DNA from: Streptomyces albofaciens JCM 4342
GTDB lineage: Bacteria; Actinomycetota; Actinomycetes; Streptomycetales; Streptomycetaceae
Length of the DNA: 64,000 bases
Direction of reading: 5' to 3'
Assembly (NCBI RefSeq): GCF_008634025.1
Contig: NZ_PDCM01000002.1
Span: 992,001 to 1,056,000 of the forward strand
This document shows positions 9,886 through 58,385 of the stretch, one piece after another. The position numbers and the translations under genes were made by a program. The notes below the pieces were generated by a model, which was not told the DNA's origin, ran no database searches, and was given only the letters and a program-made list of their open reading frames with translations. How positions within the stretch are numbered: position 1 is the stretch's first letter; every line of letters begins with the position of its first letter.

Positions 9886-10554
9886 ATGTCTCAGCAGCAG
9901 TGGAACACCGTCGACGACTACTTCAACTCCCTGCTCGTCCCGTCCGACGACGCACTGGAGGCCGCGCTGCGCGACAGCGAGGCGGCCGGTCTGCCCCGGA
10001 TCAACGTGACGCCCACCCAGGGCAAGCTGCTCCAGTTGCTCGCCCAGATACAGGGCGCCCGGCGCATCCTGGAGATCGGTACGCTCGGCGGCTACAGCAC
10101 CATATGGCTGGGCCGCGCCCTGCCCGCCGACGGCCTTCTGATCTCCCTGGAGGCCAACGCCTCCTACGCCGACATCGCCCGCGTCAATCTGGCCCGCGCC
10201 GGGCTCGCGGAGCGTACCGAGATCCGCGTCGGCCCGGCACTGGACAGCCTCGCCCAGCTGGCCGCCGAGGACACCGAACCGTTCGACCTGGTCTTCATCG
10301 ACGCGGACAAGGCCAACAACCCGCACTACCTGGAGCGGGTCCTCGGACTGACTCGCTCCGGCAGCCTGATCGTCGGCGACAACGTCGTACGCCACGGGGA
10401 CGTCGCCGACGCCGGCAGCACCGACCCCTCGATCCGCGGAATCCGCCGCTTCCTGGAACTCATCGCCGAACACCCGAAACTGACCGCGACCGCCGTGCAG
10501 ACCGTGGGCGCCAAGGGTTACGACGGCTTTTCCCTGGCCCGGGTGACCGGCTAG
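9886..10554 (+). CDS. Class I SAM-dependent O-methyltransferase
   Basis: 222 residues of the catechol/caffeoyl-CoA O-methyltransferase family. SAM motif I is ILEIGTLGGYSTIWLGRAL (about 62-80). The metal-binding Asp is in VFIDADKANN, with a second site in VGDNVVRHGDV, so a divalent cation is used. Length and motif order are standard. It transfers a methyl group from SAM to a phenolic or carboxylic hydroxyl; the acceptor cannot be read from sequence. Good AAGGGG ribosome binding site. Confidence 0.92.
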   Translation: MSQQQWNTVDDYFNSLLVPSDDALEAALRDSEAAGLPRINVTPTQGKLLQLLAQIQGARRILEIGTLGGYSTIWLGRALPADGLLISLEANASYADIARVNLARAGLAERTEIRVGPALDSLAQLAAEDTEPFDLVFIDADKANNPHYLERVLGLTRSGSLIVGDNVVRHGDVADAGSTDPSIRGIRRFLELIAEHPKLTATAVQTVGAKGYDGFSLARVTG

Positions 10555-31556: not shown

Positions 31557-32522
31557 TTGTTCGTCGACCTGCCCCTGGACCAGCTGCGCGCCTACCGGCC
31601 CCCGCTGCCCGAGCCCGAAGACTTCGACGCGTTCTGGCGGCGCACGCTGGACGAGACCGCCGCGTACGGCCTGGACGCGTGCTTCACGGAGACCGACGCG
31701 GGCCTGGCCCTGCTGCACACCTGCGACGCGGAGTTCTCGGGCTTCGGCGGGCACCGCGTCAAGGGCTGGTTCCTGATGCCGCGCGCGGCGGACGGGCCGC
31801 TGCCGTGCGTCGTGCAGTACCTCGGGTACGGCGGCGGCCGCATGCACCCGCACGACTGGCTGCTGTGGCCGGCCGCGGGCTACGCGACGCTGGTCATGGA
31901 CACCCGGGGTCAGAGCGGCCCGAACCGCCCCGGCGACACGCCCGACCCGGTCGCCGCCGCCAACCCGGGCGTGCCCGGGAAGCTGACCGAGGGGCTGCTC
32001 GACCCCGAGGGCTACTACTACCGCCGCGTCTACACCGACGGCGTACGGGCCGTGGCGGCGGCACGCGGGCACGCGGCGGTGGACGCCGGGCGCGTCGTGG
32101 TGGCGGGCGGCAGCCAGGGCGGCGCCATCGCGCTGGCCGTGGCCGGGCTGGTGCCGGGGCTCGCGGGCGCGCTGATCGACGTGCCGTTCCTGACCCACAT
32201 CCGGCGTGCCGTCGAGATCACCGACGAGGGCCCGTACGGCGAGCTGACCCGCTACCTCGCGGGCGCCCGCACCGAGGTGGACGCCGCCCTGCACACGCTC
32301 GACCACTTCGACGGCCTGAACTTCGCGGCGCGCGCGAGCGCCCCCGCTCTCTTCGGGACCGCGCTGCGCGACCCGGTCACGCCCGCCTCCACCGGCTTCG
32401 CCGCGTACCACCACTACGCGGGCGCGAAGGAGCTGCGGCTGTGGCGGTTCAACGGGCACGAGGGCGGGGGCGGGCACCAGCGGGCGGCGGAGATCCGCTT
32501 CCTGCGGGAGCTGTTCGGGTGA
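31557..32522 (+). CDS. CE7 acetyl-xylan esterase
   Basis: 321 residues from TTG 31557, chosen because GGAGG lies six bases upstream and the next residues [28 protein letters not shown] (two adjoining pieces) are the family start. The CE7/AXE1 motifs follow: the oxyanion-hole Tyr in [19 protein letters not shown], the nucleophile in [10 protein letters not shown], the Asp near DPVTP, and the His in [11 protein letters not shown]. It removes acetyl groups from xylo-oligosaccharides, probably inside the cell since no signal peptide is present. It converges on xylA and so links to the xylose genes beside it. Confidence 0.92.
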
Positions 32523-32555
32523 GTCCGCCTCGCGCGCCGATGGGCTCCCAGGCGG

Positions 32556-33719
32556 TCAGCGCGCCCGCAGCAGGTGGTCCATCGCGAGCTGGTCGAGCCG
32601 TTCGAAGGCCATTCCGCGGGCGGCGGCCGCTTCCGGGTCGAAGGACTCGTACGCCGTACGGTCCGCGAGCAGGGCGGCGAGCCCGTCACCGGCGGTGGGC
32701 CGGGCCAGCTCGTCCAGCCGGGACGCGCGCAGCGCCTCCTGGACGGCCGGGTCGGCGCGGAACGCCGCGGCGCGCTCCTTGAGGATCAGGTATGTGCGCA
32801 TGCAGCCGGCCGCGGAGTCCCACACGCCGTCCAGGTCCTCGGTGCGCGGCGGCTTGAAGTCGAAGTGCCGCGGGCCGTCGTAGCCCGCGGTCTCCAGCAG
32901 GTCCACCAGCCAGAAGGCGGCCCGCAGGTCGCCGGCGCCGAAGCGCAGGTCCTGGTCGTACTTGACGCCGGACTGCCCGTTCAGGTCGATGTGGAAGAGC
33001 TTGCCCGCCCACAGGGCCTGCGCGATGCCGTGCGGGACGTTCAGCCCGGCCATCTGCTCGTGGCCGACCTCCGGGTTGACGCCGTACAGCTCCGGCCGTT
33101 CCAGCCGCTCGATGAACGCGAGGGCGTGGCCGACGGTCGGCAGCAGGATGTCGCCGCGCGGCTCGTTGGGCTTCGGTTCGATGGCGAACCGCAGGTCGTA
33201 GCCCTGTTCGACGACATACTGGCCGAGCAGGTCGAACGCCTCCTTCATCCGGTCCAGGGCCGCGCGCACGTCCTTGGCCGCGCCGGACTCCGCGCCTTCG
33301 CGCCCGCCCCACGCCACAAACGTACGGGCGCCCAGCTCGGCCGCCAGGTCGATGTTCCGCAGGGTCTTGCGCAGCGCGTAGCGCCGCACGCCGCGGTCGT
33401 TGGCGGTGAAGGCGCCGTCCTTGAAGACCGGATGGGTGAAGAGGTTGGTCGTCGCCATCGGGACGGTCAGCCCGGTGGCGTCCAGCGCCTGGCGGAAGCG
33501 CTTGACGGCCGCCTCGCGGGCGACGTCGCCGGACCCGGAGGGGATCAGGTCGTCGTCGTGGAAGGTGACGCCGTACGCGCCCAGGTCCGCCAGCCGGTGG
33601 ACGGTCTCGACCGGGTCGAGCGGGCGGCGGGTGGCGTCCCCGAACGGGTCGCGGCCCTGCCAGCCGACCGTCCACAGACCGAAACTGAACTTGTCCTCGG
33701 GCACGGGCTGGTAGCTCAT
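32556..33719 (-). CDS. xylA: Xylose isomerase
   Basis: 387 residues, the size of actinobacterial class I xylose isomerases. Near the N-terminus [20 protein letters not shown] is invariant. The catalytic His is in [12 protein letters not shown], and the metal ligands are in [26 protein letters not shown] (Glu/His), [22 protein letters not shown] (Asp residues; shown here as two adjoining pieces [12 protein letters not shown] and [10 protein letters not shown]) and [11 protein letters not shown]. It interconverts D-xylose and D-xylulose with Mg/Mn/Co. GAGGGAG ribosome binding site. Divergent from xylB, probably controlled by the ROK repressor encoded nearby. Confidence 0.97.
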
Positions 33720-33742
33720 CGCTGCTCCCTCGGCCGGTTCAC

Positions 33743-33769
33743 CAATTCGTCATGGCGCTTTACAAATTG
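33743..33769. promoter_or_regulatory. AT-rich inverted repeat in the xylA-xylB intergenic region, candidate XylR operator
   Basis: CAATT at 33743-33747 and AATTG at 33765-33769 are mirrored, and TTTACA at 33759 with TAATAT at 33784 could be the -35/-10 of xylB (19-base spacing). The low GC is local. This divergent region is where a ROK xylose repressor would act. Assignment is by position. Confidence 0.4.
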
Positions 33770-33791
33770 CGGCGGGCCCAAACTAATATGC

Positions 33792-33830
33792 GGCAGCACG
33801 CCGGGAAAGCCCTCCGACGGGCGTGCTGCC
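33792..33830 (+). promoter_or_regulatory. Perfect 11-bp stem-loop in the xylB leader
   Basis: GGCAGCACGCC at 33792-33802 pairs exactly with GGCGTGCTGCC at 33820-33830 across a 17-base loop. It lies between the likely xylB promoter and the GGAAGGAG ribosome binding site, 43 bases before the ATG. It could be a 5' UTR structure that stabilises or attenuates the message, or an operator. No U-tract follows, so it is not a standard terminator. Confidence 0.5.
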
Positions 33831-33873
33831 CGGCGACCGGCGAGGCCGCCCCGCGGTCCGGAAGGAGAACGCG

Positions 33874-35394
33874 ATGGGCACACAGGCAGCGGGACCGCTG
33901 GTCGTCGGCGTGGACAGTTCCACCCAGTCCGCCAAGGCGCTCGTGGTGGATGCCGCGACCGGCGAGGTCGTCGCCCGCGGGCAGGCGCCGCACGTGGTCG
34001 GCGGCGGTACGGGCGCCGGTGGCCCGGACTCCGGCGCGGGTTCCGGCGGCGCGGGTTCCGGCGCGGGCAAGGAGAGCGATCCCGAGCAGTGGTGGCAGGC
34101 GCTCGGCGAGGCGCTGCGCCAGTGCGGTGACGCCGCGCGGCAGGCGGCGGCCGTCTCCGTCGGCGGCCAGCAGCACGGCCTGGTCACCCTCGACGCGTCG
34201 GGGCGTCCGGTGCGTCCGGCGCTGCTGTGGAACGACGTACGGTCGGCGCCCCAGCAGCGGCGCCTGCTGGCCGAGTTCGGCGGGCCCCGGGCGTGGGCGC
34301 GGCGGGTGGGCAGCGTGCCGCTGCCCGCGTTCACCGTGACCAAATGGGCCTGGCTGCGCGAGACCGAGCCCGCGGCGGCCGACGCGACGGCCGCGGTACG
34401 GCTGCCGCACGACTACCTCACCGAGCGCCTGACCGGCGAGGCGGTCACCGACCGCGGTGACGCGTCCGGTACGGGCTGGTGGTCACCGGCCGACGAGGCG
34501 TACGACGAGGAGATCCTGCGGCACGTCGGCCTGGACCCGAAGGCCCTGCCGCGGGTGGCGCGGCCGGGCGAGGCCGCGGGCACCGTACGGTCCGGTGAAC
34601 TGCCGCTGCCGAAGGGCGCGTTGGTCGCGGCGGGTACCGGCGACAACATGGCGGCGGCGCTGGGGCTCGGCCTGCGCCCCGGCCGGCCCGTACTGAGCCT
34701 GGGCACCTCGGGCACGGTCTACGCGGTGTCCGACCGGCGCCCGCCCGGCGACCCCACGGGCACGGTCGCCGGATTCGCCGACGCGCGCGGCGGCTGGCTG
34801 CCGCTGGCCTGCACCCTGAACTGCACGCTGGCCGTGGACCGGGTCGCCGCCCTGCTCGGCCTGGAGCGGGAGGACGTGGAGCCCGGCGGATCGGCGGTGA
34901 TGCTGCCCTTCCTGGACGGCGAGCGCACACCGGACCTGCCGCACGCGTCCGGGCTGCTGCACGGCCTGCGGCACGACACGACACGCGGTCAGGTACTCCA
35001 AGCGGCGTACGACGGAGCGGTTTTCGCGCTGCTCCAGGCGCTGGACCGGATCGTGGACGAGGAACTGCCGGCCGATGTGCCGCTGCTGCTGATCGGCGGC
35101 GGGGCGCGCGGCCGGGCCTGGCGGGACACCGTACGCCGGCTTTCGGGGCGCCCTGTGGTGGTGCCCGAGGCCCGCGAACTGGTCGCTCTGGGCGCGGCGG
35201 CGCAGGCGGCGGGGCTGCTGCTGGGCGAGGACCCGGCGGCGGTGGCCAGGCGGTGGGGGACGGCCCGCGGTGCCGAATACCCGGCGGTGCCGTGCGACAC
35301 GGCGGCTCGGGAACGGCTGGCGGAGACGCTCGCTGCGGGAGAAGGGCTGCTGGGGATGTACGGGACCGGTGATGGGCCCGCTGCCGGAGCATGA
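33874..35394 (+). CDS. xylB: Xylulokinase with a Gly/Ser/Ala-rich insertion; candidate encapsulin cargo
   Basis: 506 residues from ATG 33874 with GGAAGGAG upstream. FGGY kinase fold: VVGVDSSTQSAKALVVD at the N-terminus, SVGGQQHGLVTLD, GTGDNMAAALGLG, LSLGTSGTVYAVS (phosphate-binding) and LLIGGGARGRAWRD near the C-terminus. It phosphorylates D-xylulose to xylulose-5-phosphate. Oddity: residues about 43-66 are almost purely Gly/Ser/Ala (GGGTGAGGPDSGAG and SGGAGSGAGK), inserted before the conserved DPEQWWQAL. That loop is normally short. Encapsulin Family 2 cargos are loaded through disordered segments, and two shell genes lie downstream, so the loop may target the enzyme into a shell. Divergent from xylA. 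Confidence 0.93.
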   Translation: MGTQAAGPLVVGVDSSTQSAKALVVDAATGEVVARGQAPHVVGGGTGAGGPDSGAGSGGAGSGAGKESDPEQWWQALGEALRQCGDAARQAAAVSVGGQQHGLVTLDASGRPVRPALLWNDVRSAPQQRRLLAEFGGPRAWARRVGSVPLPAFTVTKWAWLRETEPAAADATAAVRLPHDYLTERLTGEAVTDRGDASGTGWWSPADEAYDEEILRHVGLDPKALPRVARPGEAAGTVRSGELPLPKGALVAAGTGDNMAAALGLGLRPGRPVLSLGTSGTVYAVSDRRPPGDPTGTVAGFADARGGWLPLACTLNCTLAVDRVAALLGLEREDVEPGGSAVMLPFLDGERTPDLPHASGLLHGLRHDTTRGQVLQAAYDGAVFALLQALDRIVDEELPADVPLLLIGGGARGRAWRDTVRRLSGRPVVVPEARELVALGAAAQAAGLLLGEDPAAVARRWGTARGAEYPAVPCDTAARERLAETLAAGEGLLGMYGTGDGPAAGA

Positions 35395-35447
35395 CAGGTT
35401 TCGGGCTCCGCCCGCCGCCAGGAGCATGACGGATTCCGGATTCCGCC
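35386..35447. repeat. Two-copy direct repeat at the end of xylB
   Basis: A 27-base unit beginning GGAGCATGAC and ending TCCGCC occurs at 35386-35412 and 35421-35447 with 22 of 27 positions equal, period 35. The first copy includes the last codons and stop of xylB. It is a local duplication, perhaps of the gene end, now in the untranslated region. Confidence 0.6.
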
Positions 35448-35536
35448 TGGAGAACGGTGGCCGGAAATCCGGATCCGCAGAACGGATTCGGACGCCGCCG
35501 TACCGCCGGCGCGGGAGTTGTGATGGGGTGCCGGGC

Positions 35537-35839
35537 ATGAGCATCTTTGTTCGTGCCCGGTTCGATGTCCGCGACCGCCGGCAGGACGGCATCGAGCGGA
35601 GTGCCACCGCGCTGCACGAGGCGGCCGGACCGGAGCCGGTGAGCCCGACCTACCGCTGGTTCACCCTCCCCGAGCCCGGCGCCTACCTGGTACTGGAGGA
35701 GTACGCCGACCCCGCCGCACCCGGGGCGGCCCCGGAGAGCTGCACCGGGCTGCTGACGAGCCTGGGAAGGTGTGCCGACATGACGATCGCCGAGATGTAC
35801 GGGGCGCTCGGGCCCGGGCGGCCGGATGCGGCCGGCTGA
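35537..35839 (+). CDS. Small ferredoxin-like-fold (antibiotic biosynthesis monooxygenase-type) protein
   Basis: 100 residues from ATG 35537. MSIFVRARFDVRDRRQDGIE, then PTYRWFTLPEPGAYLVLEEY and ADPAAPGAA match the ABM-like alpha/beta barrel pattern with the usual W/Y core. Family members are small cofactor-free quinone-type monooxygenases or stress proteins. It lies between xylB and xylR; its role there is unknown. The upstream region has few ribosome binding features. Confidence 0.6.
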   Translation: MSIFVRARFDVRDRRQDGIERSATALHEAAGPEPVSPTYRWFTLPEPGAYLVLEEYADPAAPGAAPESCTGLLTSLGRCADMTIAEMYGALGPGRPDAAG

Positions 35840-35902
35840 CGGCCGTTCCGCCCGCCTACCCAGCTCTCCTCACCCGACGTCCCCGGGAGAACCCCGACCC
35901 AC

Positions 35903-35953
35903 ATGATCGACACGCTCGCCCCGTCCATACCGCCCGTCACAGCTGCCCCGTGA
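35903..35953 (+). CDS. 16-codon leader ORF overlapping the xylR start
   Basis: ATG at 35903 reads MIDTLAPSIPPVTAAP and stops at TGA 35951-35953, which overlaps the GTG start of xylR (35950-35952) as GTGA. A GGGAG lies about 13 bases upstream of the ATG. Such an overlap would couple xylR translation to this peptide. It may equally be a chance short frame; the coupling geometry is the only support. Confidence 0.4.
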   Translation: MIDTLAPSIPPVTAAP

Positions 35954-37227
35954 CCGCTCCCGGCGCCGACACACAGCACGGCATCCGCCGCCGCAACCTG
36001 GCGCGGGTCCTGGGAGCCGTGGCCGCCGACGGGCCCGTGTCGCGGGCGGGTGTCGCGGCACGGGTCGGGCTGACCAGGACGGCCGTCTCCACGCTGGTCG
36101 ACGCCCTGCTGCGGGCCGGTCTGCTGGTCGAGACGGGTCCGGCGGCGACCGGCGGACGCGGGCGGCCGGGCAGCGGACTGGCCGTCAGCGGCACCGGGCC
36201 CGCGGGGATCGGCGCCGAGATCGGTGTGGACCACCTCGCGGTGTGCGCCGTCGACCTGCGCGGGCGGATACGGGCCCGGGTGGCGGCCGATGCCGCCGAC
36301 GGGAGCGGCGAGCCGGGGCCCGTACTGCGCCGTCTGGCCGGGATGATCACAGAGGTCACGGACCGGATCGCGGCGCTGGACCTGCGGCCCGCCGGACTCA
36401 CGGTCGCGGTTCCGGGGCTGGTGGCGCGCGGTACGACGACCGTGGTGCACGCTCCCAACCTCGGCTGGCGGAACGTCGATCCGGCTCCGGTGCTCCGTGC
36501 CCTGGCCGACGCGCCCGAGCCGCTCACCGTCGAGAACGAGGCCAACCTCGGCGCACTGGCCGAGCTGTGGCTCGGCGGCGGACCGGATGGCGATGGAGCG
36601 CCGCCGCCCGGCTTCCTCCACGTCTCGGCGGAGGTGGGCATCGGCGCCGCGGTTGTCGTGGACGGTCAGCTGCTGCGCGGGGTACGGGGTTTCGCGGGCG
36701 AGCTGGGGCACGTACCGGTGTATCCCGGTGGGCGGCCGTGCGGCTGCGGTGCGCGGGGATGCCTGGAGCAGTACGCGGGGGAAGCTGCGGTACTACGGGC
36801 GGCCGGTCTCGACCCCGGGCGTGCGGCGGCCGGCCACCCCGGTCCGCGGGCGCGCGTCGAACTCCTCGCCCAGCGCGCCGCCGCCGGTGACCGAGCCACC
36901 TCGGCCGCCTTGCGGGACGCGGGGGCGGCGCTCGGGATCGCGCTCGCGGGCGCCGTGCAGCTCCTCGACCCGGAGGCGGTGCTGCTCGGCGGGGCGCTGG
37001 CGCGGCTGACGCCCTGGCTCCTGCCGTCGCTGGAGGGGGAACTGACGGCCCGTACGGCCCTCGCGCCGCACGCGGGGGCCGCGCCGCGGATACGGGTGGC
37101 CGCCGCCCGCCACGGCGCCGACGGGCCGCTGCTCGGCGCGGCGCACACCGCCCTGCGCGCCGTCCTCGACGATCCGCTGGGCCGGCCCTGGTCACCCGCC
37201 GTTTCCCGGCAGCTCTCCGGAGAATAA
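35950..37227 (+). CDS. xylR: ROK family transcriptional repressor, probable XylR
   Basis: 425 residues from GTG 35950. The N-terminal HTH is RRRNLARVLGAVAADGPVSR followed by AGVAARVGLTRTAVSTLVDA and LLRAGLL. The ROK domain has EIGVDHLAVCAVDLRGR, VENEANLGALAELWLGGG, the ROK motif HVSAEVGIGAAVVVDGQLLR followed by GVRGFAGELGHV, and the zinc motif CGCGARGCLEQY. The catalytic Asp of ROK kinases is altered, as expected for a repressor. It sits beside xylA/xylB and very probably represses them in the absence of xylose. A 260-base intergenic region separates it from the encapsulin genes. Confidence 0.92.
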   Translation: MTAPGADTQHGIRRRNLARVLGAVAADGPVSRAGVAARVGLTRTAVSTLVDALLRAGLLVETGPAATGGRGRPGSGLAVSGTGPAGIGAEIGVDHLAVCAVDLRGRIRARVAADAADGSGEPGPVLRRLAGMITEVTDRIAALDLRPAGLTVAVPGLVARGTTTVVHAPNLGWRNVDPAPVLRALADAPEPLTVENEANLGALAELWLGGGPDGDGAPPPGFLHVSAEVGIGAAVVVDGQLLRGVRGFAGELGHVPVYPGGRPCGCGARGCLEQYAGEAAVLRAAGLDPGRAAAGHPGPRARVELLAQRAAAGDRATSAALRDAGAALGIALAGAVQLLDPEAVLLGGALARLTPWLLPSLEGELTARTALAPHAGAAPRIRVAAARHGADGPLLGAAHTALRAVLDDPLGRPWSPAVSRQLSGE

Positions 37228-37350
37228 CCCGGTCCGTCACCTCGACGCCTTTTCCCGCCGCTGGCCGACGGGTGCGCGACCGGAATCACCCCGGCACACT
37301 TTCCAGCAACGGCTTCCATTAAACCTGTCCATCTCCATTATTTTTCATGC

Positions 37351-37364
37351 CACTCGTTCGAGTG
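37351..37364. promoter_or_regulatory. Inverted repeat in the AT-rich leader of the encapsulin locus
   Basis: CACTCG-TT-CGAGTG is a perfect 6-bp inverted repeat in the unusually AT-rich stretch 37313-37390, about 125 bases before the first shell gene. It may be an operator or promoter element for the encapsulin genes. Nothing else in the 260-base intergenic region is recognised. Confidence 0.4.
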
Positions 37365-37487
37365 ATTGCCCGGATTAAAACGACACGCCTATGTTCAGTG
37401 CGACGAGCGGCACGGACCTCGTCTCGCGAACGGCCGTGGCCCCGGCCGCCGTCCTCTTTCCAACCTTCCAAGATTGGTGGCACAGCC

Positions 37488-38897
37488 GTGACGGTTACGG
37501 ACGAGACCATTTCCGGCCCCGAGGGCGAAACGCAGAATTCCAGCCTCACGACGGCCGCGGCCCGCAATCTGGCCACGACCACCAAGACCGTGCCGCAGAT
37601 GCAGGGCGTCTCCTCGCGCTGGCTGCTGCGGCTGCTGCCCTGGGTGCAGGTCTCCGGCGGCACGTACCGCGTCAACCGGCGGCTGACCTACACGGTCGGC
37701 GACGGCCGGGTGGACTTCGCCGTCTCCGGCACCGCAGTAACGATCATCCCTGACGAACTGCGCGAACTGCCCGCGCTGCGCGACTTCACCGACACCGCGG
37801 TGCTCGGCGCGCTCGGCGAGCGCTTCGTCCAGCGCGAGTACGCGCCGGGCGACGTGATCGCGGCCGCCGGCACGCCCGCCGACCGCCTGGTGCTGATCGC
37901 GCACGGCCGGGTGGACCGGATCGGCGCCGGGAAATACGGCGACGAAACGGTCCTGGAGGCACTCGCCGGCGGCGACCACCTCGGCGACGCTCCGCTCACC
38001 GACACCGCCGCGTCATGGGAGTACACCTACCGCGCGGTGACGCGGGTGACCGTCATGGAGCTGCCCCGGCAGGACGCGCAGGAGGTCACGGACGGCTCGC
38101 GGGAGCTGCGCGACCACCTCGCGACGGCCGGCGCGGGCAGCGCTCCGCCGCGCAACGCCAGCGGCGAGTCGGCCATCGAGGTCGCCTCCGGCCACCACGG
38201 CGAGCCGCGGGTGCCCGGCACCTTCGTCGACTACGAGCTGAAACCCCGGGAGTACGAACTCAGCGTGGCGCAGACGGTGCTGCGGGCCCACACCCGGGTC
38301 GGCGACCTCTACAGCGACCCGATGAACCAGGTCGAGCAGCAGTTGCGGCTGACCATCGAGGCGCTGCGCGAGCGTCAGGAGCACGAGATGGTCAACAACC
38401 GCGGGTTCGGCCTGCTGCACAACGCCGACCTGACGCAGCGCGTCCGTACCCGCAGCGGCCCGCCCACCCCCGACGACCTGGACGAGTTGCTCGCGACGGT
38501 GTGGAAGGACCCGACGTTCCTGCTCGCCCACCCGAAGGCGATCGCCGCCTTCGGCCGGCAGTGCAGCGCCCGTGGCCTGTATCCGACGGCGGTCGACTTC
38601 ATGGGGCATTCGCTGCCCTCCTGGCGCGGGGTCCCGATCTTTCCGTGCAACAAGATTCCGGTCGGCGCGGACGGCACCAGTTCGTTCCTGGTGATGCGTA
38701 CCGGCGAGGAGAAGCAGGGTGTCGTCGGGCTGCACCAGACGGGAATCCCGGACGAATACGAGCCGGGGCTCTCGGTCCGGTTCATGGGCGTCAACGACCA
38801 GGCCATCGCCAACTATCTCGTGAGCGCCTATTACTCCACCGCGATCCTGGTGCCGGACGCGCTGGGAATTCTGGAGGACGTGCAGACCGGCCAATGA
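37488..38897 (+). CDS. Family 2B encapsulin shell protein, copy 1
   Basis: 469 residues from GTG 37488. The N-terminal arm [20 protein letters not shown] followed by [21 protein letters not shown] is the hallmark of Family 2B encapsulins, which have the HK97 phage capsid fold. A CRP/FNR-type cyclic-nucleotide-binding-like domain is inserted at about residues 85-200 ([40 protein letters not shown]). The rest is the capsid core: [53 protein letters not shown] and [20 protein letters not shown]. It probably forms a closed 60-mer nanocompartment (T=1). The phosphate-binding cassette reads LGDAPLT rather than the LGExAL seen in CRP-type domains. Confidence 0.95.
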
Positions 38898-39113
38898 ACC
38901 ACCCCCGTTCGAGCCATGGGAATCGGTTGAAGAACCGTTTGCCGAGAAATGACGCTCCCGCGTTTCCCATGGCCGACACCCCGTGAATCCCGGCGCGACC
39001 TCCGCGGCCCCGCGCGCGGTCCCCGTGCCCTCCCCGGCCGCGTACCGCGGGACGGTCGCGTCCGTCCCGCGGCCCTGACCGTCCCACGACCCACAGGAAC
39101 AGGTGAAACCCCC

Positions 39114-40532
39114 ATGACCACATCGGCGGACCCGACGTCCGGACCCGGCGCCACCCCGGACACCGACCCGGCGCGCACCAGCCTGGCGACAGCCGCGGCA
39201 CGCAATCTGGCCACCACGACCAAGACCGTGCCGCAGATGCAGGGGATCTCCTCCCGCTGGCTGCTGCGCGTGCTGCCGTGGGTGCAGGTCTCCGGCGGCA
39301 CGTACCGCGTCAACCGGCGCCTGACGCACACCCTCGGAGACGGCCGGGTCGAGTTCACCAGCACCGGTTCCGACGTCCGGGTCATCCCCGCGGAACTGCG
39401 GGAACTGCCGCCGCTGCGCGACTTCGACGACCAGGAGGTGCTGGAGGCGCTGGCCGGCCGATTCGTCCAGGAGGAGCACGCGCCCGGTGACGTCCTGGTG
39501 GAGCAGGGGCGCCCGGCCGACCGGGTCGTCCTGGTCGCGCACGGCAAGCTGAACCGTATCGGCACCGGCAAGTACGGCGACGAAACGGTCCTCGGCGTCC
39601 TCGCGGACGGCGACCACCTGGGCGAAACGGCACTGCTGGCACCGGACGCGGTCTGGGAGCACACGGTCCGGGCGGTCACGCGGGTGACCGTACTGACGCT
39701 GCCCCGCGCCGCGTACGAAGAGTTCGCGGACCGCTCCCCCGGCCTGCGCGACCACCTGGAGCGCCACCGCGGTGCCCAGATCCCGCCGCAGAACAAACAC
39801 GGCGAGGCGGCCATCGACGTGACCTCGGGCCACATCGGCGAGCCCGCGCTGCCGGGCACCTTCGTCGATTACGAAGTGGCGCCGCGGGAGTACGAACTGA
39901 GCGTCGCGCAGACCGTGCTGAAGATCCACACCCGGGTCGCCGACCTCTACAACGACCCGATGAACCAGCTGGACCAGCAGCTGCGGCTGACCATCGAGGC
40001 GCTGCGCGAGCGCCAGGAGCACGAAATGGTCAACAACCGCGAGTTCGGCCTGCTGCACAACGCCGACCTCAAGCAGCGCATCCACACCCGCAGCGGCCCG
40101 CCCACCCCCGACGACCTGGACGACCTCATCTCCCGGCGCCGCAAGACGCAGTTCCTGCTGGCCCACCCGCGCACCATCGCCGCCATCGGCCGCGAGTGGA
40201 ACGCCCGCGGCATCTACCCCGCCACCACGGAGCTCGGCGGCACCGCCGTGCGCGCCTGGCGCGGCATCCCGCTGCTCCCCTGCAACAAGATCCCCGTCAA
40301 CCCCGACCAGACCAGCTCGATCATCGCCATGCGCGTCGGCGAGGAGAACCAGGGCGTCGTCGGCCTCCACCAGACCGGCATCCCCGACGAGTACCGCCCC
40401 GGCCTCTCCGTCCGCTTCATGGGCATCAACGAACAGGCGGTCATCAACTACCTGGTGAGCGCCTACTACTCGGCAGCCGTACTCGTCCCGGACGCCCTGG
40501 GCGTGCTGGAGGACGTGGAGATCGGCCACTAG
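39114..40532 (+). CDS. Family 2B encapsulin shell protein, copy 2
   Basis: 472 residues from ATG 39114, 216 bases after copy 1. It aligns with copy 1 over its full length without large gaps: the same [20 protein letters not shown] arm, the same CBD-like insertion ([20 protein letters not shown]), the same core motifs (VPGTFVDYE counterpart [36 protein letters not shown]). Here the cassette is LGETALL, closer to CRP. The N-terminal ~25 residues are different and disordered-looking (Ser/Thr/Pro/Asp-rich). Two related shells may co-assemble into a mixed shell. Terminated by a strong hairpin. Confidence 0.95.
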
Positions 40533-40553
40533 CCGACGCCGCCGACCGACATC

Positions 40554-40590
40554 CGCCCGCCGCCCCGCCACCGTGGTGGGGCGGCGGGCG
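40554..40590 (+). terminator. Strong terminator after the encapsulin genes
   Basis: CGCCCGCCGCCCC at 40554-40566 pairs with GGGGCGGCGGGCG at 40578-40590: a perfect 13-bp stem with an 11-base loop, 21 bases after the shell-2 stop. There is no T-tract, as is common in Streptomyces. It marks the end of the encapsulin transcript. Confidence 0.85.
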
Positions 40591-41260
40591 GCGTGCGTCG
40601 GTCCCGGCTCGTCTTCAGGCCGTCGACGACCTGACCCGTAAGGCGCGTTGAGCCTGGAAGACCATGTCGCACGGAAGGTGACGGGGTGTCAGGAGAGGGG
40701 GGTGGGGCAGGAGACCGCGGTTTCCGGCTCTGTGGTGTGGTGGGTTTCCGCCAGGCCGGGTGAGGCCCCGGGTGTACCGGTGGGCGGACAAGGGTTCATC
40801 GGTCCACCGCGCCTCGGCTTCCGGTGCCGCCGCGCTGCGCGGGTGCGGTGGTGTGGGGATGTGGCGGAGGCTGTCACTCACTGTCGCGCGTCCGGTGCTG
40901 TCGCTGTAGGCCCGCTCGGCACACCGGACACATGCGTCACAGGCGGAGCGGCGTTGCCGCGTACGGCCTGGGATTTCGCCTTGGCCGGTGGGCGCAACGG
41001 CGATGCCGGGTCTGGGTGCTCACCGTCGCTGTCCGTTCAGGGAGGCTCGGTTGCGGAGCGTCCGGCGCGCTTCGGGGGATGGTGTGCCGCGCCCGGTGGT
41101 GGCCGTTCCGGTCGGCGGTGCCCGGCATCCGTATTCGGCCGCTTCGCGGAAATCCAGCCGCGACCACGCCATTTGGGGCATGGCCAGAGCTTTTCGGTCG
41201 AAAAAACAGGTTCTCCCGGAACCGCCCCAAAGAGCGGATCACGCCTTACGCTCCCTGGTC
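40591..41260. other. 670-base region without a convincing gene
   Basis: Several open frames on both strands lack start-site signals and protein-like composition. No terpene-cyclase or prenyltransferase Asp-rich motif and no encapsulin-targeting peptide is seen here. The 3' end carries TACGCT eight bases before the ATG of the next gene, a possible -10 box of a leaderless message. Confidence 0.5.
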
Positions 41261-54671: not shown

Positions 54672-55304
54672 TCAGTGCAGCGGTGCGGTGACCGGCGCGG
54701 GGACGGCGGGAACGTTCAGGCGCAGCAGCGCCGCCTGGCCGTCGCGGAGGCGCAGTTCGGTCAGCGCGCCGTTGAGGAGCTGGGGGAAGACGCGCCGGTA
54801 GTCGGCGAGCGGGATGCCCAGCAGGTGGCAGAGGAGGACCCGGACGAGGGTGGAGTGGGCGACGATCAGGACGCGGCCGTCCGGGTGGTCGCGCTCGATG
54901 TCGGCGAGGCAGTCGGCGGCGCGTACGGCGGCGGCCCGCGGGTCCTCGCCGCCGGGCAGGTGGTGGCCGACCGGGTCGGCGAGGAACGCCGCCAGCTCCT
55001 CGGGGAAGCGGCGTCGCATCTCGTCCCTGGTCAGGCCCTCGCCGCGGCCGAAGTCCACCTCGTAGAGGCGTGCGTCGACGTGCGGGGTCAGGCCGCAGGC
55101 CGCGGCGGCGGGCCCGGCGGTGCGGCGGGCGCGGGACAGCGGGGAGCACCAGACGGCGTCCAGGCGGGCGGTGACGGCCCAGTCGGCGAGGGCCGCCGCC
55201 TGTGCCTCGCCGCGGCCGGTCAGCGCCACGTCGGTGAGCCCGGCGTAGCGGTTCTCGGCGTGCCACTCGGTCTCGCCGTGGCGTACGAGGATGAAGTCGG
55301 TCAC
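54672..55304 (-). CDS. Histidine phosphatase family protein
   Basis: 210 residues from GTG 55304 that overlaps the kinase stop (GTGA). Catalytic motif LVRHGETEW at residues 6-14; second His in [14 protein letters not shown]. The phosphoglycerate-mutase-like (GpmB/PhoE) fold is present ([27 protein letters not shown]). It dephosphorylates or isomerises small phosphate esters. Being co-translated with two sugar kinases suggests it acts on their product or relieves sugar-phosphate stress. Confidence 0.92.
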
Positions 55305-56803
55305 TGTGCGGTCCTCCTGCGGGCGTGGTCGGCCACGGTCTGGTCGAGCCAGCCACGGCGGGTCAGTTCGTCGAGGAAGCGGAGGTAGGCGGGGAGCAGG
55401 CGGGCGGTGCGGGCCGGGTCGGGGGTGACGGGGGCGCCGGTGCGGACCATGGCCGCGGCGGCCTCCTGGAGGGTGACGCCGCCGGAGGTGGCGGCGAGGA
55501 CGGCCATGCCGAGGGCGCCTTCGGCCTGTTCGGGCAGGTGGACGGGGCGGCCGAGCAGGTCGGCGCGCAGCTGCGACCAGTACGCGTTGCGGGCGCCGCC
55601 GCCGGTGAAGGTCAGCGGTCCGTCGACGGGGGCGCCGAGGTGGTCGAGGTAGTCGAAGCAGAGGCGTTCGACGCAGGCGACGCCGAGCAGGAAGGCGTGG
55701 AATTCCTGGGCGCGGGTGGGGACGTCGCCGAGGGTGAAGGGCTCGGCGTCGGGGGCGCGGAAGGGGAAGCGCTCCCCCGCCGACACCAGGGGGTAGGTGA
55801 TCGCGTCCCAGTCCTGTCCGCGGCGCTCGGCCTCGGCGGTGAGCGCGTCGAGGTCGTCGCCGTTCTCCGGGGTGAAGTGCCGTGCCAGCACACCCGCGCC
55901 GGAGCTGGAGGCGCCGCCGGGCAGCCAGGTGCCGTCCGGGCCGCGGTGGCAGTAGACGACGCCGTGCGGGTCGCGGATCAGGTGCGGGCTGACGCCCTTG
56001 AGGACGAGTGTGGTGCCCAGGACCGAGTTCCAGGCGCCGGGGGCGAGGGCGCCGGCGCCGATCTGGGCGGCGCAGCCGTCGGTCGTCCCGGCGACGACGG
56101 CGGTGCCCTCGGGGATGCCGGTGGCTTCGGCCGCGGCGGCGCAGACCGTACCGAGGACGGTGCCGGGCCGTACGACCTGCGGCAGTACGCGCTCGGGCAC
56201 GCCGAGCCGGGCCAGTTCGGCGGACGGCCAGCGCTCCTCGGCGAGGTGGTAGCCGGTCTTGAGGGCGTGGCCGGCGTCGGAGGGGACCTGGCGGCCGGTC
56301 AGCCGCCAGGTGATGAGGTCGGGCTGGTGCAGCAGCCGGGCCCGCCGGCCCCGTTCGGGGTCCTGCCGCAGCAGCCACAGCAGTTTCGGCAGCGCCCAGG
56401 AAGGCTGCATGCTGCGGTAGCCGAGGTCCCGCCACACCGCTCCCCCGGCCTCGTTGACGGCCGCGGCCTCGTCGGCGGCGCGGCCGTCGTCGTACATCAG
56501 GCCGGGCGTGAGCGGCGTCCCGTCGGCGTCGGCGAGGAGGATCGTGCCGGAGGTGGCGTCGAGGGCGAGGCCGCGTACGCGGGACGGATCGATGCCGTCG
56601 AGGGCTTCGCTGCAGGCGGCCGACAGCGCGCTCCACCACTCCTCGGGCCGCTGCTCGTGGCGCCTGCCGTCGCGGTGGCCGGTCAGCGGCCAGGAGGCGG
56701 CGGCGAGCAGCTGCCCGGTCCCGTCCACGGCGACGCAGCGGGCGCTCTGCGTACCGAGGTCGAGACCGAGCCAGACGGCGTCGGCGGTCAGGGCGTCAGA
56801 CAC
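55301..56803 (-). CDS. FGGY family carbohydrate kinase, second in the operon
   Basis: 500 residues from GTG 56803, which overlaps the upstream kinase stop by 8 bases. [16 protein letters not shown] is the phosphate-1 region; [20 protein letters not shown] and [16 protein letters not shown] are the phosphate-2 and adenosine regions. The family phosphorylates pentuloses, polyols or glycerol. Being distinct from the other kinase in the operon (different active-site sequence, no close identity) it probably has a different substrate or acts on a second step. Confidence 0.92.
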
Positions 56804-58385
56804 GGTGCGGAACTCCTAGGGCGGGGGTTTCTGGTGGTGCGACTGTCCGGGGCGGCAGGGCCGGGGGCCGGTCGGGTGCTGCCGCGGTGCGGCCGGCCCG
56901 GGGGCGCCAGCCCGCCTCGCGGGCGAGGGCGCGCCAGTGCAGGAAGTCCTCGTACAGCTCGGCGTACTGGGCGGTGCGCTCCGGGTCGGGCTCCCAACTA
57001 GCGCGCATCCGTACGTACTTGGAGGCTGCGCTGTGCATGCTGGACTCGGCGCCGGACAGCACCAGGCCGGTGAGGAAGGCGCCCTTGGCGCCCAGTTCGG
57101 TGTCGCCGGAGCGGGCGGTCGGCACGCCCGTCGCGTCGGCGATGAGCGCGCACCACGCGTCGCTGTTGGCGCCGCCGCCGCACAGCCGCAGCTCGGTGAC
57201 CTCCGTACGGGAGGCGGCCAGCGAGTCGCGCAGCACCAGCGACAGGCCGTCGAAGACCGCGCGGGCCATGTCGGCGCGGGTGTGTTCCAGGGACAGGCCC
57301 CAGAATCCGCCGCGGGCGTGCGCGTCGAGGAACGGCGCCCGCTCGCCCGCCGGGGAGAGGTACGGCAGGAACATCAGCCCGCGGGCGCCCGGCTCCGACT
57401 CGAAGGCCAGCCGGGCCAGTTCCGGCGGCCCGGACAGGTGCAGGGTGCGCGCGGCCCAGCCGAGCACCTCGGCGCCGTTGAGGGTCGGGAAGGCGCGCAG
57501 GACGCGTTCCCGGCCGCGGTAGGCGATGTTGATGCCGGACGGCTCGCCGGTGGTGTCCACGCTCGTACGGACGATCTCGGTGCACAGCGTGGTGCCGAGG
57601 ATGCTGCACGCCTGGCCGGGGTTGACGACGCCGACGCCGCGCGCCGTGGCGGCGATGTCGTACGGGGCCATCACGACCGGCAGCCCGGCGGGCAGCCCGA
57701 GCTGGCCGGCCGCCTCGGAGGTGATCTCGGCGATCCGCTCGTGCTCGCCCAGCACCTTCGGCAGCAGCCGCTCGTGGGCGGTCAGTCCGAAGAGTTCGAG
57801 GAGGTACGGGTCGTACGCGCCGGTGGCGTGGTCGAGGAAGGGCGCCGAGGCGTCGGACTCGTCGATGGCGGTGACCCCGGTCAGGCGCAGGAAGAGCCAG
57901 CCGGCGGCGGTGAGCGCGGAGCGGGAGCGGGCGAGCCGGTCCGGGTCGTGCCGGGCCAGCCAGGCGAAGATCGCGTTGGGCATGCCGGCGCAGGTCAGCG
58001 AGCCGTTGCGGCGGAAGGCCGTCTCCAGGACGCCGTCCTGCTGCCACCGGCCGACGAGGTCGCCCGCGCGGCCGTCGGACCACAGGATGGCGGGGCCGGT
58101 CGGGCGGCCGCGGTCGTCCACCAGCCAGGCGCCGTCGCCCTGGGCGGTGAAGGAGACCAGCCACACCGGGTCGGCGGGGCCGGGCCGGGCGGCGAGTTCG
58201 GACAGCGCGTTGCGGACGGTGAAGACGACGGCGTTCCAGACGGCGTCCATGTCCTGTTCGGCCCAACCCGGGCGGGGGCGCAGCACTTCGGTGGCCAGCC
58301 GGGAGACGGCGATCTCCCGGCCGCGGTCGTCGAAGACCACGGACTTGATCATCGTGGTGCCGACATCGATGGTCAGTACGGACAT
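56796..58385 (-). CDS. FGGY family carbohydrate kinase, first in the operon
   Basis: 529 residues from ATG 58385 with GAAAGGACG upstream. VLTIDVGTTMIKSVVFDDRG is the phosphate-1 region; CSILGTTLCTEIVRTSVDTT and ELRLCGGGANSDAWCALIAD follow. The pattern is closer to erythritol- or ribulokinase-like members than to XylB. A C-terminal extension is Pro/Ala-rich and disordered. It lies 13 bases after the MFS transporter gene. Substrate unknown; a four- or five-carbon polyol fits the transporter. Confidence 0.92.
   Translation of the reverse strand: MSVLTIDVGTTMIKSVVFDDRGREIAVSRLATEVLRPRPGWAEQDMDAVWNAVVFTVRNALSELAARPGPADPVWLVSFTAQGDGAWLVDDRGRPTGPAILWSDGRAGDLVGRWQQDGVLETAFRRNGSLTCAGMPNAIFAWLARHDPDRLARSRSALTAAGWLFLRLTGVTAIDESDASAPFLDHATGAYDPYLLELFGLTAHERLLPKVLGEHERIAEITSEAAGQLGLPAGLPVVMAPYDIAATARGVGVVNPGQACSILGTTLCTEIVRTSVDTTGEPSGINIAYRGRERVLRAFPTLNGAEVLGWAARTLHLSGPPELARLAFESEPGARGLMFLPYLSPAGERAPFLDAHARGGFWGLSLEHTRADMARAVFDGLSLVLRDSLAASRTEVTELRLCGGGANSDAWCALIADATGVPTARSGDTELGAKGAFLTGLVLSGAESSMHSAASKYVRMRASWEPDPERTAQYAELYEDFLHWRALAREAGWRPRAGRTAAAPDRPPALPPRTVAPPETPALGVPHRV

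Follow-up and report, generated by a model that had tools for sequence, protein, structure and literature searches.

Family 2B encapsulins that occur with a xylulose kinase (XK) have been described as two-component systems of Streptomyces; here and below, papers are cited for the portions consulted. The survey PMC8346489 reports 124 XK systems, all from Streptomyces and always with two shells, often accompanied by an acetylxylan esterase, xylR and xylA, and with XKs lacking consistent disordered stretches. In S. lydicus, T=1 shells are formed by Enc2 but not by Enc1 alone, and the two proteins mix irregularly (PMC12407261). The same paper places the cyclic nucleotide-binding domains (CBDs) on the outside, reports from cited work that Family 2B CBDs do not bind cyclic nucleotides, proposes that a luminal loop (diagnostic motif 2) may serve in cargo loading, and states of XK systems that there is "no native cargo yet determined". 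We analysed a 64,000-nucleotide stretch of Streptomyces albofaciens JCM 4342 (contig NZ_PDCM01000002.1, positions 992,001 to 1,056,000; hereafter the window), taken from a 9.25-Mb genome (2 contigs); it carries such a system: the xylulokinase gene xylB followed by the shell genes Enc1 and Enc2. We propose that this Family 2B shell may well package the neighbouring xylulokinase, docked on the luminal loop of Enc1, a proposal to which we give about an even chance of being right.

The window system is a member of the published XK kind, and the idea that XylB is its cargo is not new. The original prediction for this stretch had noted that surveys list xylulose kinase as a putative Family 2 cargo, and the candidate is indeed already in print (PMC8346489). 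Gene set and shell motif 1 are the same as in the Streptomyces XK Family 2B two-component systems (PMC8346489; S. lydicus, PMC12407261), XylB is without a disordered tail in both, and an S. lydicus locus (L019) has shells of the same clades as the window Enc1 and Enc2. Closest among the named loci is that of S. rimosus (L009), at 95% in both shells. The sole feature that we found to distinguish the window from the published systems, as the consulted portions describe them, is a Gly-rich insert in XylB. Relative to the same portions of PMC8346489 and PMC12407261, what is new is the independence from xylA, the relatives without xylB, the conserved Enc1 loop and the separate promoter-region element.

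A scan of species-representative genomes with Enc2 as query covered the best 80 of 577 relatives and yielded 79 distinct loci; distant types are under-sampled. Including later fetches, 28 loci have XK-type shells (window, L009-L031, L041, L046, L072, L127). A wider search of the genus found XK Enc1 in 16 of 382 genomes; nine of these were fetched at the locus, four duplicating earlier loci and five being distinct (L145, L146, L148, L150, L151), and in the remaining seven the position matches the window or earlier loci. For comparison we used the group NEAR (12 loci, with xylB some kb before the first shell), the group VERT ("verticillate-type", our own label, derived from species names), the group OTH (another Streptomyces set of shell pairs) and FREE (XylB rows without shells). 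The NEAR XylB rows number 13 and include L120 (genome G149), which was placed by likeness and whose contig ends before any shell.

In all 33 distinct XK loci (28 plus the five further ones) XylB is located upstream of Enc1, with at most a ROK gene and a small open reading frame (ORF) between them. Half of the 28 have no ROK match and an XylB-Enc1 gap of 210-357 bases, except L011, where the gap is 808 bases and contains a small ORF; in the other 14 the gap is 1.4-2.2 kb with the ROK gene inside. Among the xyl genes and the acetyl-xylan esterase (AXE), only XylB is present in every XK locus, and for this reason we consider it the best candidate for a partner of the shells.

This linkage persists where xylA is missing. 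In 13 of the 28 XK loci no xylA stands beside XylB. XylA was unmatched genome-wide in nine of these 13, eight among 26 XK genomes searched at E 1e-60 and G089 at E 1e-110; the xylA-less genomes are mostly drafts, L041 being a complete chromosome and G089 a single contig. The other four (L013, L015, L018, L072) have xylA elsewhere in the genome, where a second XylB (62-63% identity) adjoins it in three and lies on another short contig in the genome of L018. On a tree of 38 XK and NEAR loci (L046, L050 and L058 excluded as incomplete), absence of xylA from the locus requires at least five changes, five being forced by starred branches. In a genus sample of 199 genomes, 127 passed an XylB threshold of E 1e-180 (about 70% identity), and 126 were compared after G149 was dropped because its contig ends. 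xylA was missing in 5 of 17 genomes with a shell pair within 10 kb of XylB versus 4 of 109 without (Fisher p 0.0023, kinship ignored; shell pairs were taken among the matches listed, and a distant shell near XylB could be missed). The five cases (2 of 9 XK, 3 of 8 NEAR) represent about four lineages; the four exceptions without such a pair are G021, G088, G120 and G132. As judged by nonsynonymous over synonymous rates (dN/dS, pairwise NG86), XylB is under purifying selection in loci without xylA: values were 0.118-0.228 in 6/6 sister pairs of XK loci and 0.142-0.261 in three NEAR pairs, all without xylA, and 0.108-0.220 in six XK pairs with xylA.

The Enc1 loop provides the second line of evidence. 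Ranked by conservation among ten-residue segments of the HK97 part, the loop falls at percentile 50 in XK Enc1 versus 0-3 in seven other shell groups (Enc1 and Enc2 of NEAR, VERT and OTH, and XK Enc2); ranked over the whole protein it falls at 64 versus 2-19. Overall identity is alike, 0.863 in XK Enc1 and 0.862 in NEAR Enc1. Per codon pair, the XK Enc1 loop (28 rows) has 0.115 nonsynonymous differences and 0.301 synonymous ones, a ratio of 0.38; in the seven other groups, where the loop evolves fast, the ratio is 1.38-3.50. In the rest of the HK97 part it is 0.64 in XK Enc1 and 0.34-0.70 elsewhere (raw pairwise counts, shared ancestry ignored). The loop is kept in loci without xylA or ROK and, with up to two changes, in 5/5 held-out distinct loci. 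On a plain reading of these alignments, its conservation points to a clade-specific luminal partner.

A loading signal on XylB was also sought. Among 58 XylBs we found no conserved tag, whether targeting peptide or disordered loading domain, and no shell-linked tail; because XylB has no cargo tag, its status as cargo has to be inferred. A single true alignment column (66, K versus R/H) separates the 28 XK from 17 shell-free XylB rows, and 9 of the 13 NEAR rows also have K. The Gly/Ser/Ala-rich insert, which makes the window XylB 20 residues longer than that of S. rimosus L009 and 30 longer than the usual 476, was rejected as a loading tag, as it is not conserved across XylBs. An apparently XK-specific N-terminal segment and column 1 were set aside because the NEAR and FREE rows are trimmed at the start of their tblastn match. 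As another cargo candidate, the neighbouring NAGPA gene (cluster c2) was discarded for its secreted-type N-terminus, judged by eye.

Besides the missing tag, several observations weigh against a xylulokinase docked on this loop. The NEAR Enc1 loop is not conserved (ratio 1.81) although XylB lies 3-6 kb away, and within XK the loop itself varies, most in L017 and L020. For XK-Enc1-specific conservation it ranks 5th of 459 segments; the four higher ones overlap a patch in the CBD, GRVDRIG(T/A)GKYG, which is the top segment and is variable in other groups. The patch may reflect a clade change in Enc1 other than cargo, and shows that this subunit differs in more than one respect. Four shell-free XylB pairs gave dN/dS of 0.071-0.147; the XK values are not lower, and those from loci without xylA are somewhat higher. 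xylA does stand beside XylB in 15 of the 28 loci, AXE may itself be cargo or co-cargo in the XK clade, and related shell pairs occur in genomes without an XylB orthologue (see below). The prediction that XylB is the cargo thus gains indirect support, from complete linkage, from retention without xylA and from a loop conserved only in XK Enc1, and is opposed by the lack of a tag and by the XylB-less shells.

Taken in its own right, the CBD patch hints at a ligand or partner on the outside of the shell that is particular to this clade.

Trees were built with a "quick" method and SH-aLRT support, no bootstrap. In the tree of 175 shells (5 short pieces excluded), Enc1-type and Enc2-type shells form two clades (support 95 and 83), each including XK, NEAR, VERT and OTH copies. 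Four shells belong to neither clade: the first copies of L047, L052 and L113 and the sole shell of L058. In the 12 NEAR loci 3.2-6.3 kb separate the end of xylB from the first shell, and GNAT-, GDPD- and NAGPA-type genes (named by eye) lie in the interval or its vicinity. No xylB was found within the fetched stretch of 15 VERT loci; a NAGPA-type gene was called just upstream of the shell pair in 12 of them and a lysX-type gene downstream in 14. Searches of the 15 VERT genomes (L032-L040, L042-L045, L049, L053) gave no XylA match at E 1e-60 in any; the kinase that best matches XylB does not exceed 58% identity, and in 13 of these genomes it does not exceed 45%. Conserved synteny of xylB with Family 2B shells, the check named with the original prediction, therefore gave a mixed answer: it holds in every XK locus, whereas 15/15 verticillate-type genomes carry the related shell pair and no XylB orthologue. 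The shell pair does not need this XylB everywhere, and the two can come apart. For VERT, either a loss of xylB or its original absence would be a reading of the tree.

These relatives bear on the best-surviving alternative, in which XylB is a mere neighbour, the shells load one or more proteins encoded elsewhere, and the xyl genes are adjacent because the chromosomal slot is conserved. A common set of neighbour genes does recur around shells with and without xyl genes (names by eye, except for NAGPA and lysX in the window), and both the verticillate-type genomes, which keep shells with neither an XylB orthologue nor XylA, and the untagged XylB are as this alternative expects. A neutral gene would hardly be kept by Enc1 in 33/33 loci while xylA and ROK come and go, however, and GPTGLGT, the one known cargo motif sought, was unmatched in the genome of the window (a single codon pattern, with Leu as CTN only). 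We regard this alternative as possible and rather unlikely.

Alternatively, AXE, alone or with XylB, would be the cargo, and the shell would sequester the deacetylation of acetylated xylo-sugars. AXE occurs in 23 of 27 XK loci (the L024 contig starts too late to judge) and in 9/9 stretches from the wider genus search, is retained in 11 of the 13 XK loci that have no xylA, and did not turn up in the fetched NEAR or shell-free stretches (a few kb each side). But L014, L023 and L031, which are without AXE, keep the loop, and XylB is never missing, which makes this explanation improbable. Lastly, that XylB binds outside and the shell with its conserved CBD patch serves as a regulatory surface, no enzyme being enclosed, would suit the strongest XK-Enc1-specific segment and the outward-facing CBDs reported not to bind cyclic nucleotides (PMC12407261), yet the luminal loop is conserved too, only in this clade, and we consider such a surface very improbable.

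On the simplest reading, the shell pair would be older than its link to xylB, since both Enc clades include pairs without xylB nearby. In one Streptomyces clade the pair stands right beside xylB, and together with the conserved Enc1 loop this may be read as recruitment of a new cargo. By homology to S. lydicus, Enc2 would build a T=1 shell of about 28 nm with Enc1 mixed in. Enc1 would be the docking subunit, which would account for the constant presence of two shells in XK systems. The absence of xylA and ROK on several branches would reflect loss, not gain. Because XylB and the shells occur together without xylA, the work of XylB in the shell would not require xylose isomerase, and XylB would phosphorylate a ketose that arrives by another route.

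The control regions were compared across the same loci. Between xylA and xylB lies a conserved element that includes CAAACTAATATG, which we take to be XylR half-site-like. A XylR/ROK-like operator pattern, derived from intergenic regions that include the window's own, matched once in the window versus 0 in 100 shuffles. Of the XK loci, 13 of the 15 that have xylA and 2 of the 13 that lack it carry exact CAAACTAA upstream of xylB; upstream of Enc1 it occurs in 0/28 XK loci, and in this exact form, the only one sought, it gives no sign of XylR control of the shells. An inverted repeat of the type CACTC-N4-GAGTG lies about 100-140 bases before Enc1 in 28/28 XK loci (loose pattern). The same pattern precedes Enc2 in 1/28, has occasional chance matches elsewhere, and fits 10/12 NEAR and 9/18 VERT Enc1 regions.

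The repeat resembles TCACcCgnncGgGTGA, the BldM Group I box (PMC4125116); this is a resemblance only, and BldM control of Enc1 was not retained as a conclusion. With up to three mismatches the consensus had 12 matches in the window versus 10.4 expected, not above chance. With up to four, matches upstream of Enc1 versus Enc2 were 21/28 versus 8/28 in XK, 6/12 versus 2/11 in NEAR, 15/18 versus 14/18 in VERT and 2/11 versus 2/11 in OTH. Since Enc1 has a conserved promoter-region element of its own and lacks an exact XylR-like half-site, there is no indication that xylose induces the shells. From these upstream regions we infer that the shells are regulated separately from the xyl genes, and developmental timing of XK shells is a suggestion. 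As a step of xylose catabolism, the xylulose phosphorylation that the original prediction has the compartment isolate or regulate is weakened as an explanation: XylB and the shells occur together without XylA, and the exact half-site precedes no XK Enc1.

Pfam and NCBIfam matches bore out the predicted gene order of esterase, xylA, xylB, ROK gene and two full-length Family 2B shells (Table 1); the minus-strand, divergent orientation of xylA relative to xylB had not been given. The AXE1-type esterase had no NCBIfam match. Start positions of XylB, Enc1 and Enc2 were picked by eye as likely. Both shells match PF19307 and PF00027, the Family 2B combination of an HK97-type shell with a cNMP-type domain in its E-loop. 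The closest solved chains are 9bje_A for Enc1 and 9bix_A for Enc2, probably the S. lydicus structures. Diagnostic motif 1 (PMC12407261) reads TVWK in Enc1 (38496-38507) and RRRK in Enc2 (40134-40145). Adjacent genes, Enc1 and Enc2 motifs and separate clades identify a two-component Family 2B system, and xylB within the shell cluster, with AXE, xylA and xylR as accessories, identifies an XK-type operon. As predicted for the adjacent genes, Pfam or NCBIfam scans of 21 different window ORFs, a part of the ORFs in the 64 kb, recognised no terpene cyclase, prenyltransferase or cysteine desulfurase. The predicted terminator after the shells stands as a strong hairpin with a perfect stem (fold z -5.2; 0/200 shuffles equally stable); it has no U-run and was not among the terminators listed by a terminator scan.

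Table 1. Features of the XK-type encapsulin locus, in window coordinates.
Feature	Position	Strand	Evidence and remarks
AXE1-type acetyl-xylan esterase gene	31557..32522	+	PF05448, E 2e-95; start uncertain
xylA, xylose isomerase	32556..33719	-	TIGR02631, 717 bits (cut-off 447)
XylR/ROK-like conserved operator element	33759..33790	+	Between xylA and xylB; likeness assumed by us
xylB, xylulokinase	33874..35394	+	TIGR01312 XylB, 435 bits (cut-off 380); likely start of ORF 33823-35394
ROK-family repressor ORF, xylR-like	35770..37227	+	PF00480 and MarR_2; start uncertain
Inverted repeat CCACTCG-TT-CGAGTGA	37350..37365	+	Enc1 promoter region
Enc1, Family 2B encapsulin shell	37488..38897	+	NF041163 encap_f2b, 752 bits (cut-off 400); likely GTG start
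CBD patch codons of Enc1 (10 residues)	37911..37940	+	Unusually conserved in XK Enc1
Enc1 loop codons (10 residues, diagnostic motif 2)	38589..38618	+	Predicted luminal cargo-docking loop; position per PMC12407261, portions consulted
Enc2, Family 2B encapsulin shell	39114..40532	+	NF041163 encap_f2b, 788 bits (cut-off 400); likely ATG start
Hairpin 3' of Enc2	40553..40591	+	Perfect 18-bp stem; likely terminator without U-run

Elsewhere in the window, two adjoining FGGY-kinase ORFs lie on the minus strand at 55301-58385, with the XylB model as best match, below its cut-off. A small ORF at 35270-35839 stands between xylB and the ROK gene, and counterparts that look alike by eye were called in L009-L011 alone (cluster c63). 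In the complete genome of L046, Enc2 (L046:10001-11412) aligns only from base 10126 in its best frame, a possible frameshift near the start. Further Streptomyces shell pairs without a nearby xylB are those of L061, L062, L074, L077, L082, L083, L116, L121, L122, L125 and L126; a beta-helix/AAA-type gene (cluster c31, by eye) is close to six clustered loci of this set.

Other encapsulins offer a comparison. EshA is, we presume, a Family 2B shell related to the XK shells. The window shares with the EshA / 2-methylisoborneol (2-MIB, terpene cyclase) encapsulins a shell family with a CBD insertion. These have another cargo gene and, in S. venezuelae, form the BldC-activated operon eshA-mibA-mibB (PMC6428758), whereas XK shells have their own promoter-region element; eshA is developmentally controlled (PMC6428758, PMC3878966). 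A 2-MIB-type locus (L007, named by eye) that has a related shell is also present in the genome of the window. There, at L007:9049-10602 (contig C2, about 833 kb), the Family 2B shell reads in two frames (two PF19307 matches) beside an unbroken terpene-synthase ORF, through either a real frameshift or a sequencing error. The cysteine-desulfurase Family 2 encapsulins belong to the same superfamily, and one copy in this genome (L003/L006) is 47% identical to Enc1. Its cysteine desulfurase has a long low-complexity N-terminal region (by eye), whereas XylB has none. The adjoining shell (L006:6443-9605; contig C1, about 1760 kb) has 460 aa, a CBD-bearing length.

A bolder extension of the XylB-cargo proposal would make Enc1 the cargo-receptor subunit of an ancient, development-timed two-part shell that, in this clade, took up a xylulokinase by way of the Enc1 luminal loop; the kinase would have left xylose catabolism and would phosphorylate another ketose, for example 1-deoxyxylulose to 1-deoxyxylulose 5-phosphate (DXP). 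Only this extension, which we offer as a long shot, draws on the review PMC8791446, which reports that xylulose kinase promiscuously phosphorylates 1-deoxyxylulose in an engineered E. coli pathway. If true, it would link XK shells with the isoprenoid theme that other Family 2B cargos share. For XK encapsulins, whose native cargo PMC12407261 leaves open, our comparison points to one ten-residue loop of Enc1 as a specific, cheaply testable candidate determinant of XylB loading, and suggests that the compartment should not be studied under xylose induction alone.

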